A stretch of DNA of 64,000 nucleotides, from contig NZ_JAQTZU010000018.1 in the NCBI RefSeq assembly GCF_028687615.1, positions 1 to 64,000 on the forward strand, given 5' to 3'. This DNA comes from Methylovulum sp. (lineage in GTDB: Bacteria; Pseudomonadota; Gammaproteobacteria; Methylococcales; Methylomonadaceae). Position 1 is the stretch's first letter. Each line of letters starts with the position of its first letter. A program made the translations under genes and the position numbers. Positions 1 to 5,125 of this stretch are shown piece by piece. The notes below the pieces were generated by a model that was given only the letters and a program-made list of their open reading frames with translations, was not told the origin of the DNA and made no database searches.

Positions 1-102
1 ATGACGACATTCTTGATGTCTGCTGTCAGGCTTGGAATAAATTTGCTTTGCAACCGGACGCCATTCGATCCCTTTGCTCTCGGAGCTGGGCGGTGTTGTC
101 AT
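1..102 (-). CDS. Possible 5' end of a gene running off the left edge
   Basis: An open minus-strand frame starts at an ATG at 102 and stays open for 34 codons to the window edge, beginning MTTPPSSESKGIEW. It is not recognised. It sits directly upstream of, and divergent from, the integrase fragment, whose homology only begins near 119. This stretch could therefore belong to a different gene that joined or interrupted the integrase N-terminus. The length is too short to separate coding from chance. Confidence 0.2.
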   Translation of the reverse strand, partial: MTTPPSSESKGIEWRPVAKQIYSKPDSRHQECRH

Positions 103-118
103 AGAAACTTATTGGGAT

Positions 119-947
119 TGGTATTATTCCCACACATTGGCGTTAAACCCATCACCGACATTAAACCGCCTGAGCTATTGGCGGTATTACGGAAGATTGA
201 AGCCAGAAACGCCATTGACACGGCACATAAAGCCTTTAGTGTAGCCAGATATTCCGTTATGCCGTGGTTACAGGCCGCACCGAGCGGGATATAACCCCCG
301 ATTTGCGAGGTTCATTGATGCAAATCAAAGGCGGGCATTTTTCAGCCGTCACAGAACCCAAACAAGCCGCCGAATTGCTACGCGCCATTGATGGATATAG
401 CGGTTCGTTTATCGTTAAATCCGCGTTACAGCTTGCGCCCTTGGTATTCGTCAGACCGGGCGAACTCAGACAAGCCGAATGGGAACACATCGACCTTGAG
501 GCCAAAGAGTGGCGGTATCTGGTCACTAAAACCCAAACCCCGCATATTGTGCCGTTATCAGCCCAAGCCATTACCATCTTGCAAGAACTCAAGCCCCTGA
601 CTGGAAACGGGCGTTATATCTTCCCAAGCGCCAGAACGCCCAATGGATCGCGCCCAATGTCTGATATGGCCTTATTGGCGGCTCTAAGGCGTATGGGTAT
701 CAGTAAAGAAGAAATGACCATACACAGTTTTAGGGCGTTAGCCAGAACCGTATTAGATGAGGTGCTAGGCTTTCGCCCTGACTTTATCGAGCATCAGTTA
801 GCCCACGCCGTAAGAGACCCCAACGGGCGGGCATATAACCGCACGGCGCACCTGCCCGAACGCCATAAGATGATGCAAGCATGGGCGGACTATCTGGACG
901 GACTTAAAAACGGGGCGCAAGTGATACCGTTCAAAAAAGCCGTGTGA
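119..947 (+). pseudogene. P4-type tyrosine integrase, frameshifted and N-terminally truncated
   Basis: Two overlapping plus-strand frames together encode the later part of a phage/island tyrosine recombinase. The first frame gives LFPHIGVKPITDIKPPELL and runs to about 240, which matches the core-binding region of P4-type integrases. The second frame continues with CSQIFRYAVVTGRTERD, reading back from about 240, and then the catalytic domain: VRPGELRQAEW holds the first catalytic Arg, HSFRALARTVLDE the HxxR pair, and AYNRTAHLPER the nucleophilic Tyr. The join needs a frame change near 240. The usual N-terminal DUF4102 arm-binding domain is absent upstream. The catalytic residues are intact, but the broken frame and the missing N-terminus suggest an inactive integrase. 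Toxin-antitoxin and primase remnants follow, as expected for an integrated island. Confidence 0.85.
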
Positions 948-1026: not shown

Positions 1027-1224
1027 ATGAACCAACCCCAATTTATAACCAACGCTAACGGCGACAAGACCGCCGTTATTTTGTCAATGGCTGATTATCA
1101 AGAACTGATGGAAGACCTAGAAGACTTGGCGGCAATTGCAGAAATTAGCGAAGAGGAAAGCACCCCGTGGGAACAAGTAAAATTGGAATTGTCCGAACAT
1201 GGCTTGTTTATAAGGTCGAGTTAA
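1027..1224 (+). CDS. RelB/Phd-type antitoxin with altered C-terminus
   Basis: This 65-residue protein has the antitoxin pattern FITNANGDKTAVILSMADYQ followed by an acidic helix (ELMEDLEDLAAIAE) and WEQVKLEL. It would bind DNA through its N-terminal half and neutralise the toxin encoded next to it. The start ATG at 1027 follows a GGTGAG ribosome site. The final residues (GLFIRSS) look abnormal. Removing four bases around 1201-1206 would end the protein at HGL with a TAA that overlaps an ATG for the toxin, the usual arrangement. I infer that a 4-bp insertion extended the antitoxin and disconnected the toxin start. Confidence 0.7.
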   Translation: MNQPQFITNANGDKTAVILSMADYQELMEDLEDLAAIAEISEEESTPWEQVKLELSEHGLFIRSS

Positions 1225-1376
1225 AAAAATCCGCCCAAAAAGCCTTGCTAGGCTTACCCAAGCCGATTATTCAAAGCCTTACGCCGTTGATTGATTCATT
1301 AAGCGGCAACCCTTATCCATCAGGCTGTAAAAAGCTATCAGGCTTAGACCACACCTACAGAATAACCGTTCGCTGA
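1200..1376 (+). pseudogene. RelE/ParE-family toxin remnant, truncated at both ends
   Basis: The frame reads VYKVELKKSAQKALLGLPKP and then KKLSGLDHTYRI, matching the N-terminal and middle part of RelE/ParE mRNA-interferase-like toxins. The C-terminal third, which normally continues from YRI with the VGDYRVIY strand and the RxGHR region, is missing because the frame ends at a TGA after TYRITVR. The expected ATG in front of VYKVEL is displaced, probably by a 4-bp insertion. The sequence passes straight into the primase fragment, so a deletion seems to have fused toxin and primase. The product should be inactive. Confidence 0.65.
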
Positions 1377-2263
1377 TGATCGTCACCGCCGAAGATTTGC
1401 CGCGTGGGCAATCGCTGTTAGGCCGCTTGCTGATTCTGGAGCTTAGCCGTTCTGATGTCGATAACGCGGTGCTGACACGCCTACAGCAAGCCGCCGACGC
1501 GGGATGGTTTACGGGTTTGATGTCGGCTTACCTGCAATGGTTAGCCCCGCGCTTGGATGACTTAAAAAAGACCTTCCCCAAAACCGTTGAAGCGTTCCGC
1601 AATGCAGCTATCCGTGATGGCATTGCCACCAGCCACCCCCTCGCCCCTGAGATTTACGCCAATATGGTGGCGGGTGCTGAGCAGTTCTTGGCGTTCTTGG
1701 AGGCGGTGGGCTTGGTGACGGATGACAAGGGCAATGGCTTGCTGTTAGATGTCGAGAGCTATCTACAGCAAGCGTTCAGCGAGCAAGGCGCGTACCAAGC
1801 CGAACAGGACGAAATCGAGCGGTTCTTGCAACTGTTACGCGCCGCCATCAGTTCCGGCAATGCCCATGTGGCTTGCCGCCTCAAGCAACGTGAACCGACA
1901 TTGAGGCCACATGCGTGGGGGTGGCGGGTGGATGGTGAAAGCCCAATGGGTGATAAAAGCTATACGCCGATGGGTGATCATATCGGCTGGTATTGTGACC
2001 CGATGGACAACGCCCACGCCGAAATCTGGTTACAGCAGGACACCGCCTTCAAGGTGGTGCAACAGTTCGCCAGAAGCCAAGGCGATGCGTTCCTGATGAG
2101 CCCCGCCAGCTTATGGCGGCGGATGCACGAGAAGGGCTTGATACTGAAAACTGAACCGAACGCCAGCCGCAACCAACCCCGCTTGGCTGTCAAGCGCGTA
2201 GTGGGTGGGCGCAATGTCCGCGTGATGGTCTTGTCTGCTGAGTTGGTCGAGTCAGGCGAATAA
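1361..2263 (+). pseudogene. C-terminal fragment of an island primase/helicase-like protein
   Basis: The frame has an ATG at 1376 and homologous-looking codons from about 1361 (NNRSLMIVTAEDLPRG). GQSLLGRLLILELSRSDVD is typical of the part after the ATPase core in large DUF927/P4-primase-type proteins of integrative elements. No Walker A or B motif is present in the preserved 295 residues, so the helicase core has been lost. The upstream boundary abuts the truncated toxin. The region from residue 175 on (WGWRVDGESPMGDKSYTPMG and the basic end) resembles the C-terminal DNA-interaction part of such proteins. Family assignment comes from remembered motifs. It could be expressed from the ATG, but no ribosome site is obvious. 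Confidence 0.6.
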
Positions 2264-2302
2264 AAAAAAAGTTAATGGGGTATAGTAATATTTTGTTGGG
2301 AA

Positions 2303-2578
2303 TGTGGGGAGATAGGCTTCTAGCCCTTATATATCAAGCCTTCCAGCTTCCCACAGGGATTTTTTTTGTGGGGAGATTCCCCACAAATGTGGGGAGCAAG
2401 AAAAACCACGCCAGCATCAAAAATGCCGCCTGATGACCACAAAAACAGCCTAAAAAAGCCCAACTCCCCACAAAACAGCCAAATTGTGTGGGGAGATTCC
2501 CCACATTTTGAGGCCATGTGGGGAGCTGGAAGCCGCACCACACAAGGGCTAGGCGCCTATTTCCCCACATTCCCCACA
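2303..2578. repeat. Cluster of ten TGTGGGGA/TCCCCACA octamers (iteron-like)
   Basis: The exact octamer TGTGGGGA occurs on the plus strand at 2303, 2367, 2388, 2487 and 2517, and on the minus strand (read as TCCCCACA) at 2378, 2465, 2498, 2562 and 2571. Two places form identical 19-bp dyads, TGTGGGGAGATTCCCCACA, at 2367-2385 and 2487-2505. The cluster lies just after the primase-like fragment. In P4-type elements, iterons bound by the alpha primase-helicase lie near that gene, so this could be a replication origin or control region. That role is inference. Confidence 0.75.
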
Positions 2579-2612
2579 TCCTACACATAAGAGGGGTATA
2601 GAATTATTTTTT

Positions 2613-2660
2613 ATGCCCCCGTGGGGGCGGTCAAATCTCTAGGGTTTTCACCCTGCCTTT
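2613..2660. other. Possible phage cohesive-end (cos)-like motif
   Basis: A GC-rich hairpin GCCCCC-GT-GGGGGC (2615-2628) runs into GGCGGTCAAATCTCTAGGG, followed by a second small stem (AGGGT/ACCCT, 2641-2654). From memory this resembles the conserved stretch next to HNH-endonuclease/terminase genes at the cos region of HK97-like phages. No terminase or HNH gene is present here. Within a P4-like remnant it would fit a packaging signal, but the assignment rests on motif recall alone. Confidence 0.35.
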
Positions 2661-3650
2661 GCGTCGCCACAGCTATTTTTTTAACAGTTTAATTTTTGAA
2701 ATACAAAAAGCCCACCGGAAGCCATTCAATCGGGTATACAGGCCAGAAAAAAAGGTACTCCTAAAACATTTTTATAGCCAAGCGAGTCGAAGCGGAGCGG
2801 CCTTGTTCTATTTCTGTTCTCTATGGTCTCGACTATAAGCCAGTAATTCATTGATAATATTAGTTTATTAAACATTGGCTTGCAGGTTTTGCAGGTGATG
2901 GCCATACCAAGCCCTACCTTTTGGCGTATCTGATGGGGGCGGGGGGAGAGTAAGTATCTTCGCGCCTGCCTCACATTTGAGGTGGGCCATTGCAGGTAAA
3001 ACAAGCTTTCTGATGAATACCGGACAAACCCGAAAACCTTTAAATTCGCCTATAGGAGAAACTAAGGGAACAGATCGACAAGGCGGAACTGATGGAATGA
3101 TGGTGGCCTGATGTCAAAAACTAGCCAAAAAGGGGGGCAGCATTACTCACTTGGCGGTATTTTTGGCGGTATATTTAAAAATAAAAAACACAAAACCCAT
3201 TATTTAATGGGCTTTGTAGAACATTGTTAGATGCCCTGCCTAACCCTGTTTGGGCAACAGTTTGGTTGATGGGATTATTGTCTAACGGACTGGATTCTAG
3301 GGTAACTTGCACCCAAAAACGAGGTAATATTTCATATTTTTGGGTTTTTTATGAAGTTTTTACCGACTCTAGCAAGGCTTTTATCCACATAGCGATGATT
3401 AACTTAATGCTAAACCGGTTGGTTCAGGCTTAAACTGATAGCTTTTGAGACAAGCATTAAGACGAAACATGCGGGGTGTAGTGAATATGTTTTCGATAAA
3501 AAGATAAGGTATTGGGGGGATACAGCCAATAATTGGAAATTACAAGAGGTTGGGTAACGGATAATATGAGGTAAGAGATTTGTTGCCAATGACCGTACGA
3601 AAATTATCCCAATATCAGATGGCTTAGTTGGGAGGATAGACTTATTAAAA
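2661..3650. other. Gene-poor stretch after the island remnant
   Basis: I see no convincing gene here. The short open frames lack ribosome sites and recognisable motifs. A direct repeat of GGCGGTAT occurs at about 3154-3174, and a small AT hairpin (CCCATTATTTAATGGG) lies at 3196-3211. Both may belong to the right end of the mobile element, for example integrase arm sites, but this cannot be shown from one copy. Confidence 0.4.
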
Positions 3651-3654
3651 GTTA

Positions 3655-3838
3655 TCCTGATTAGCAAGATGATTCAGCCAACTCCAAAATCGTTATTCCG
3701 GCAGGGATTGCCGGAGCCGTTAGACCGCGAAGCGAATCCAGAAGCCAGGGATGGCAATTCGAAGTCACATCCCTTGAACTGGATATCGGCAATCCCTGCC
3801 GATATGACGGCTTAGCTGAATCATCTTGCTAATCAGGA
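3655..3838. mobile_element. MITE-like element with 23-bp terminal inverted repeats
   Basis: Perfect 23-bp inverted repeats lie at 3655-3677 (beginning TCCTGATTAGCAAG) and 3816-3838. A second nested inverted pair (CGGCAGGGATTGCCGG near 3700 against ATCGGCAATCCCTGCCGAT near 3784) gives a long foldback structure. It has no coding capacity. The right end touches the stop codon region of the gene that ends at 3842, so the element may double as its transcription terminator. Confidence 0.7.
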
Positions 3839-3841
3839 AAG

Positions 3842-5125
3842 TTATTGACCCATCAACAAATACAGGCCTAGCCCCACCATGACCAGGCCGCTGAGCAGTT
3901 TCAGCCAGCGTCCTTCCTTTTCTTGCAACCTGCGCTGGCTGAGCGTGATGACGCCGATACTGAGCACTATGATGTCGTCCAACATATAAGCAACATTGTA
4001 CAGCAGCAGATAAGCGTAATAGCCCATGCCCGTGGTTTGCCGCATCGTCAGGATACGGGTGAAAAGCGCCGGAAAACCCGATGTGCATAGAAACTCGACG
4101 ATTTGCACGAGAATTGCCAGGATGACCGCGCCCAGCATCGCAGCGGGGAGGTTTTCGGCTTGGAGGATGCCCCGGATTCTGGCGTAGACGCCGGGTTTTG
4201 CCGATTTTGGGATGGATAAAGAAACGCCCCAGCCAAAAGCCCAAAAATCTTTGAGATTGATCGCCCCTGCCAGTATCGCAATGCCTGCAATGATGATTTC
4301 CGATGCGCGTGACAAGCCAATCAGCAGGAACAAATTGAGCCATGCCGCCATGAACACAAAATAGGCGATGCCTTCAACGGCGATAAAAGCACCGGCAACC
4401 GCCAACATCCGTGTCCTGTCCTGCATGGGGGCCAGCAGCGAAATCATCAAGACTAGCACCCACATCGAACAGGGGTTGAAGCCGTCCAATAAGCCCATTG
4501 CGACAGTGAACAGCGGTAGGCCGACTTGTTCCAAGGAAATGCGTTGGCCTAACAAAGTCACGTCAAAATCAGTTGTTTTAGCTTGTGCCACCGCGTTTTC
4601 CGCTGTACAGGACAGCGATTCAGCCGCTTCGCAACTGCCTGATGTATCGGTTGATTGCTTTGTTGCACTGGGTTGTTGCGCCAATTCCGCCCGTAGCAGC
4701 TTCCCCGTTGTGGCTTCGTCGGAATAACCGATGACCAGATGTTTGTTGAGATAAAAAGCAGGAACCTTGGCGGTGCCTACGTTTTGCGTACTGGCTATTG
4801 CTTTTAACCGTTCTAGTGCGCTTGGATCTTTTTGAATATCGCGGATGCTTATTTGCAGCTTCGGTTGTTCGCGTTGTAACAATTGCAGGAACTCTTCCGC
4901 CTTCGCGCAATGCAGGCAACCATCACGGACAAACACTTCAATAGCGACGGTTTGCTGGATATTCTGGGAGGACTTAAGGTCATCGGCGGTCACCGCTCCT
5001 GGAAAATTTAGCAGTAATGCCAGCAACAACCAAAATGACAGCGTAAATAGGCTTTGCCGGATACCGGTTTCCACTCGGTATCGGATCAAGGGCGGGATTT
5101 GAAGGTTTTTCGTTGATGCCAACAT
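3842..5125 (-). CDS. Glutaredoxin-like domain fused to a CcdA/DsbD-type membrane protein
   Basis: This 427-residue protein has a signal-like hydrophobic segment at about 26-45. A thioredoxin-fold domain follows with the redox pair CLHC (Cys70, Cys73) and the cis-Pro region KVPAF. A linker with two further cysteines (SCEAAESLSC) leads to a polytopic membrane part from about residue 200 that contains GFNPCSMWVLVLMISLL, the conserved cysteine-bearing helix of CcdA/DsbD-like electron carriers. The layout suggests thiol electrons moving across the inner membrane between a membrane Cys pair and the attached redoxin. The ATG at 5125 is preceded by GAGGA. It is a single gene with a MITE-like repeat directly downstream. 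The substrate is unknown, and fold and motifs support only the general function. Confidence 0.7.
   Translation of the reverse strand: MLASTKNLQIPPLIRYRVETGIRQSLFTLSFWLLLALLLNFPGAVTADDLKSSQNIQQTVAIEVFVRDGCLHCAKAEEFLQLLQREQPKLQISIRDIQKDPSALERLKAIASTQNVGTAKVPAFYLNKHLVIGYSDEATTGKLLRAELAQQPSATKQSTDTSGSCEAAESLSCTAENAVAQAKTTDFDVTLLGQRISLEQVGLPLFTVAMGLLDGFNPCSMWVLVLMISLLAPMQDRTRMLAVAGAFIAVEGIAYFVFMAAWLNLFLLIGLSRASEIIIAGIAILAGAINLKDFWAFGWGVSLSIPKSAKPGVYARIRGILQAENLPAAMLGAVILAILVQIVEFLCTSGFPALFTRILTMRQTTGMGYYAYLLLYNVAYMLDDIIVLSIGVITLSQRRLQEKEGRWLKLLSGLVMVGLGLYLLMGQ

Follow-up and report, generated by a model that had tools for sequence, protein, structure and literature searches.

A probable relic phage satellite in Methylovulum with a P4-like iteron array and an HK97-type cos block, and its intact relatives in Methylococcales

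The window, the whole 64,000-nucleotide stretch of Methylovulum sp. DNA analyzed here, starts at a contig edge and carries the features listed in Table 1 at that end. The integrase pseudogene has three internal stops and is 74% identical to the integrase of a satellite of Methylovulum miyakonense. The open reading frame at the position of a toxin gene had no Pfam match; in one relative (L004) a ParE toxin occupies the matching position. The 300-residue reading frame that follows, which an earlier note on this DNA took for a primase-like fragment, is instead the C-terminus of a helicase, with 84% identity to P0001, an intact 667-aa protein of M. miyakonense HT12, and is the only match to the satellite helicase in the window's genome. 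Since this genome lacks both the N-terminal half of the helicase, which contains the Walker motif, and the gene for the TOPRIM primase, the element reads as an internally deleted, non-functional relic. Neither a helper terminase of the HK97-type region nor a co-resident satellite helicase was found in the same genome, and the window copy could not replicate or be packaged without help in trans.

Table 1. Features of the satellite relic, in window coordinates
Feature	Position	Strand	Remarks
Integrase pseudogene, C-terminal two thirds	1..947	+	Pfam Phage_int_M + Phage_integrase; frameshift near 230
Antitoxin, RelB/Phd-like	1027..1224	+	PF18506, E 3.4e-07
Start of partner toxin gene, truncated at deletion joint (~1361)	1167..1376	+	ORF
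Replication helicase, C-terminal 300 residues (368-667)	1361..2263	+	ATPase core deleted
Iteron set 1	2294..2395		Sites 2294+, 2303+, 2348-, 2367+, 2378-, 2388+; spacing as in P4 ori
Spacer between iteron sets	2396..2464		54% A+T
Iteron set 2	2465..2578		Sites 2465-, 2487+, 2498-, 2517+, 2562-, 2571-
GC hairpin GCCCCC-GT-GGGGGC	2615..2628	+	On the left side of the cos-like block; in phages, too, this G-rich block comes before the motif
HK97-type cos-region block	2626..2672	+	GGTCAAATCTCTAGGG + right half CCTTTGCGTCGCC (2656-2668)
Satellite right end (integrase arm/att region)	3126..3240		End probably near 3.2 kb

At the right end, positions 3136-3182 are 85% identical to a stretch about 60 bp before attR of an intact element (L064), and chromosomal genes start again at 3842. 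A unit of about 190 bp at 3640-3835, with inverted CTGATTAGCAAGATGATTCAGC copies at its ends and CCGGCAGGGATTGCCGG inside, resembles a small non-coding mobile repeat. The genes of the window copy are ruined, yet its DNA sites that look like an origin and a packaging signal are almost intact.

A pattern search bore out the ten octamer copies within 276 bp and the two identical 19-bp dyads described in the earlier note: ten exact copies of TGTGGGGA lie on both strands at 2303-2578, and the dyad TGTGGGGAGATTCCCCACA at 2367 and 2487. When the 64-kb window was shuffled, the octamer occurred 1.98 times on average and at most nine times (100 shuffles; ten never reached). Octamers at equal density throughout the genome, named in advance as evidence against the proposed reading, were not seen, because the window holds no further copy outside 2303-2578 and the other 43 of the 53 copies in the whole genome (3.49 Mb, 56 contigs) are scattered singly.

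Phage satellites are mobile elements that ride in the particles of other viruses. In a search of 84,980 genomes, the dyad was matched only in M. miyakonense, whose strain HT12 carries two intact elements, each with an integrase, toxin-antitoxin genes, small genes, a TOPRIM protein, the helicase, the octamer array and the cos motif. Directly after an M. miyakonense satellite (L062 / L002, from ~1129) lies a remnant of a second integrase and toxin-antitoxin pair, as if elements were stacking at one site. The helicase was present in 46 of the 301 sampled genomes of the order, and 16-kb regions around 20 of its copies were compared. Many of these regions have direct repeats at both ends, several of which contain tRNA sequence. 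Nine relatives are bounded by a plausible repeat pair, measure 8.2-12.2 kb and each have an integrase. Amongst the proteins of the bounded elements were integrases, TOPRIM primases and a few head-protease or capsid genes, with no terminase among the families listed (25 of 69 PHROGs, 25 of 28 Pfam).

The helicase had no close relative in IMG/VR, phages or plasmids, where only distant ones were found. Such distant relatives on Rhodococcus plasmids (NZ_CP015236.1 8700-10163, and others) show ~24-28% identity and are annotated 'telomere-binding protein'. Comparison with PDB sequences returned only a choline-binding repeat match, and an AlphaFold2 model from a three-sequence alignment reached a pLDDT of 33, so that no fold is claimed. 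Additionally, a second satellite-like family (L195, L196, L197, L201, L203, L206) was observed in Methylococcales genomes, with a different, large primase-like protein (~500-770 aa) and tandem cos pairs, followed in several members by a head-protease-like gene and accompanied in some by a tape-measure-like gene.

A 12-site template, orientation included, was taken from one M. miyakonense element and fitted to all elements, with eight shuffles of each. In the window it added the degenerate sites TGTTGGGA (2294-2301) and TTCCCACA (2348-2355), giving 12 of 12 sites in two inverted sets of six, of which set 2 is an inverted copy of set 1 with ~74% identity over 100 bp. An AT-rich melting region was sought in the spacer between the sets and was not found there, the A+T content being 54% against 52% for the window. 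The fit also reached 12/12 in L063, 11/12 in L069 and L077, 10/12 in L066 and L071, and 6-9 sites in most others, compared with at most 5 in the shuffled controls; L068 and L073, scoring only 5, were left out as support. The 12-site layout was found 3' of the replication helicase gene in most of the 20 relatives. The octamer itself changes in concert between elements and is nearly uniform within each (TGTGGGGA, TCTGGGGA, TTTGGGGA, TTGAGGGA, TTGGGGGA, TTAGGGGA). The three elements of one genome (G115) appear to differ in octamer, with two of the three fits weak. In another genome (L058, G067), a 1071-aa open frame comprises the helicase and a long N-terminal extension and is followed by nine copies of AGTGGGGA.

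The earlier note had likened these iterons to those of P4, and the spacing supports the comparison: octamer offsets in the annotated P4 ori (0, 10, 53, 75, 86, 96) and in window set 1 (0, 9, 54, 73, 84, 94) agree within 2 bp at each of the six sites, with equal orientation at five of them. The chance of such agreement is 3.4e-5 under a simple placement model, before allowing for the few comparisons made. In set 2, the sixth site lies at 106, not 94. P4 alpha binds the type I iterons of P4, and their octamer, TGTTCACC, differs from those of the Methylococcales elements. P4 also has crr, directly 3' of alpha, with the same octamers as its ori, 4.5 kb away. The TOPRIM protein of the relatives is 41% identical to P4 alpha over 141 aa (E 3e-19); the satellite helicase showed no convincing homology to alpha (hhalign probability 9%, not significant). 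Because of the ori spacing, the position of crr 3' of alpha, the similarity of the TOPRIM protein to alpha and the reported location of PICI origins, which directly adjoin the 3' end of rep and contain two iteron sets (PMC6092414), we infer that the array is best explained as the replication origin of the satellite.

Alternatively, the array could serve regulation, incompatibility or partition through the binding of a satellite protein, and the true origin would have been elsewhere, in the lost part. Iterons serve copy control in plasmids too, and P4 possesses both ori and crr with shared octamers. However, the array comprises two complete six-site sets with the P4 ori spacing, placed directly 3' of the helicase, the location demonstrated for PICI origins (PMC6092414), and we regard this alternative as improbable.

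Past the putative origin, the GC hairpin, 36 bp after the array (about 35 bp in the earlier note), runs into the 19-mer GGCGGTCAAATCTCTAGGG at 2626-2644, and the cos-like block reaches ~2672, beyond the 2660 at which that note had ended it. The 19-mer is unique in the window's genome, with up to three mismatches allowed. One IMG/VR contig contains its exact sequence, flanked by an HNH gene and a gene for a Terminase_4 small subunit; a 16-mer of the motif occurs in 19 contigs, and the spaced pattern GGTCAAATCTCTA-N10..25-GACCG in 88 viral contigs, compared with one for a scrambled control, its length being sharply fixed at 34-35. An HNH gene on the same strand lies no more than 1.5 kb upstream in 42 of the 48 contigs that extend far enough in that direction (22% for random positions), and in most cases it ends less than 100 bp from the motif; TerL lies downstream in 27 of 45 (23% at random positions). 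In HK97 the block, GGGGGGGGGATCAAATCTTCA...TGACCGCCGCCAAA, stands at the end of the genome record, with HNH to its left and TerS at the other end, and the motif is 44 nt from the end of the chromosome record; mEp235 has a similar arrangement. By analogy with HK97, the equivalent of the chromosome end would be expected near 2672 in the window. A sequence profile matched the window block at 37.3 bits (E 5.9e-9), the window sequence being one of the 32 rows on which the profile was trained.

Methylococcales prophages show the order HNH-cos-TerS-TerL-portal. The cos of one prophage (genome G281) reads GGTCAAAAGTCTAGGG...CCTTTGCGTCGCCC and has the right half CCTTTGCGTCGCC in common with the window; prophages of G233, G179, G188 and G288 carry variants of the block. 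Genome G179 contains a satellite as well as a prophage, and their cos blocks are similar (...TATAAATCTCTA...CCTTTGCCCGG in the satellite, ...TATAATCTCTA...CCTTTGCCCGC in the prophage). The search of related genomes and prophages that the earlier note had suggested placed the array 3' of the helicase in elements with a TOPRIM primase and the motif between HNH and terminase genes, and the proposed resemblance to HK97-type cos regions holds for the HK97 record end, mEp235, the viral contigs and the Methylococcales prophages alike. Judged by this context, the hairpin and GGCGGTCAAATCTCTAGGG form a genuine motif of phage packaging regions. The idea that the 19-mer is a homing or repeat sequence was rejected because of its HNH-TerS context. 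Motif matches in five genomes of one genus (g2, L024-L028), where GGTCAAATCTCTAGGG falls inside an apparent type VI secretion gene, were rejected as chance.

The block might also have been conserved for another reason, as the target of an HNH endonuclease or a recombination hot spot, with the satellites not packaged through it. In phages it does nearly always adjoin HNH genes; however, 44 nt separate its end from the mature chromosome end in the HK97 record, the HNH protein and terminase cooperate at cos (as a 2014 PNAS paper on cos SaPIs reportedly describes), and the satellites carry the motif without an HNH gene, all of which makes this explanation decidedly unlikely. The reading of the array and motif as chance, or as a repeat scattered over the chromosome, has a negligible probability, being refuted by the shuffle controls and genome-wide counts, with no point found in its favor.

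Returning to the block as a putative packaging signal, it was found downstream of the helicase in 13 elements, including a weak site in L067 (8 bits). Two cos sites, ~90-190 bp apart and differing in sequence, are present in L062, L065, L070, L073, L075, L076 and L213; L200, whose helicase is shortened, likewise carries two, so that tandem cos occurs in 8 of the 14 cos-bearing elements (the 13 and L200); the window element has one site. Amongst 68 sources scanned as phage contigs, two sites were seen only in L204, itself satellite-like and with the sites on opposite strands, and in none of the other 67, a contrast somewhat favored by the fact that second sites of satellites helped train the profile. 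L204 (~3513) resembles a capsid-forming satellite: primase-like and HNH-like genes and a cos block are followed by genes resembling those of capsid and prohead protease, and no terminase was seen close by. A clear HK97-type cos is missing from about 10 of the 22 helicase elements and is therefore not universal in the family. Two functional cos sites are reported for EcCICFT073 and two putative ones for SaPIbov4 (PMC6092414), and the reason for such pairs is a question raised in PMC6739421.

Altogether, the segment very probably represents the cis-acting end of a degenerate phage satellite, whose relatives would replicate by means of the octamers and be packaged by HK97-type helpers through a copied cos. 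The satellite remnant proposed in the earlier note gains support from the complete relatives with direct repeats and no terminase seen; as to its content, the primase is gone, the supposed primase fragment belongs to a helicase, and the relic is non-functional. The sequences establish how the elements are built, that this layout is conserved, what the cos motif is and that the window copy has decayed; that the octamers are bound, the origin fires, terminase cuts and the satellite is transferred we infer from them, and these steps would proceed as follows. A tyrosine integrase would insert and excise the element, several relatives sitting in tRNA genes. A helper would trigger replication from the array by the TOPRIM primase, related to P4 alpha, and the separate helicase, with the helicase or its partner attaching to the octamers immediately downstream, in the way that P4 alpha binds type I iterons. 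An HK97-type helper, with its own cos between HNH and TerS genes, may then recognize the copied block in the concatemer, and its HNH, TerS and TerL proteins would cut near the block and package the satellite.

These elements add a phage satellite lineage in methane-oxidizing bacteria, with a helicase outside Pfam, and the shared cos sequence ties it to resident helper-type prophages. In the openly available literature, no paper naming both phage satellites and methane-oxidizing bacteria was found. A possible but rather doubtful reading is that the satellites use two codes, a private octamer at the 12 sites of a P4-type origin and different tandem cos sites tuned to different helpers. If so, private octamers would let several satellites share one cell without cross-talk, and helper-tuned pairs would answer why some satellites have two cos sites.

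With P4, the Methylococcales elements share a size of ~10 kb, an integrase, a TOPRIM primase with homology to alpha, a replication gene followed closely on its 3' side by octamer iterons that match the six-site ori spacing within 2 bp, and cos packaging by a helper, which in their case is predicted from sequence. P4 alpha, however, is a fused protein with Zn ribbon, TOPRIM, D5_N and Pox_D5 domains, whereas the TOPRIM protein is separate in most members and the 667-aa helicase has none of the other three domains. The iteron sets are adjacent and inverted, unlike the distant ori and crr of P4, and the cos is HK97-type rather than P2-type.

Gram-negative PICIs (EcCICFT073) likewise have int, a primase and Rep, iteron sets immediately 3' of rep, and one or two cos sites resembling the helper cos (PMC6092414). 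The PICI hallmarks of an integrase with flanking direct repeats, small size and freedom from terminase are found in the nine bounded relatives (among the families listed). A primase and Rep that precede a putative origin comprising two iteron sets, the arrangement by which PMC6092414 defines PICIs, are likewise seen in the lineage. In contrast to PICIs, the window spacer (54% A+T) has no AT-rich region between the sets, and the Methylococcales cos is HK97-type, not lambda-type as in EcCICFT073-type PICIs. AlpA (PF05930, Pfam) was matched by one of the 66 proteins of the nine bounded elements, in addition to other HTH/PrtN matches.

In the cos-type SaPIs SaPIbov4 and SaPIbov5 the cos region of the helper is likewise copied (PMC5052747), but these elements are Gram-positive, with other genes and another replication module. 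The cos region of HK97 and mEp235 has the same G-rich block, GATCAAATC/GGTCAAAAG core and right half near the chromosome end; there it lies between HNH and TerS, whereas the satellites have the block alone, without HNH or terminase genes. Not strictly P4, since the alpha domains fail, and not a proven PICI, the lineage is on sequence grounds one of P4/PICI-like satellites.
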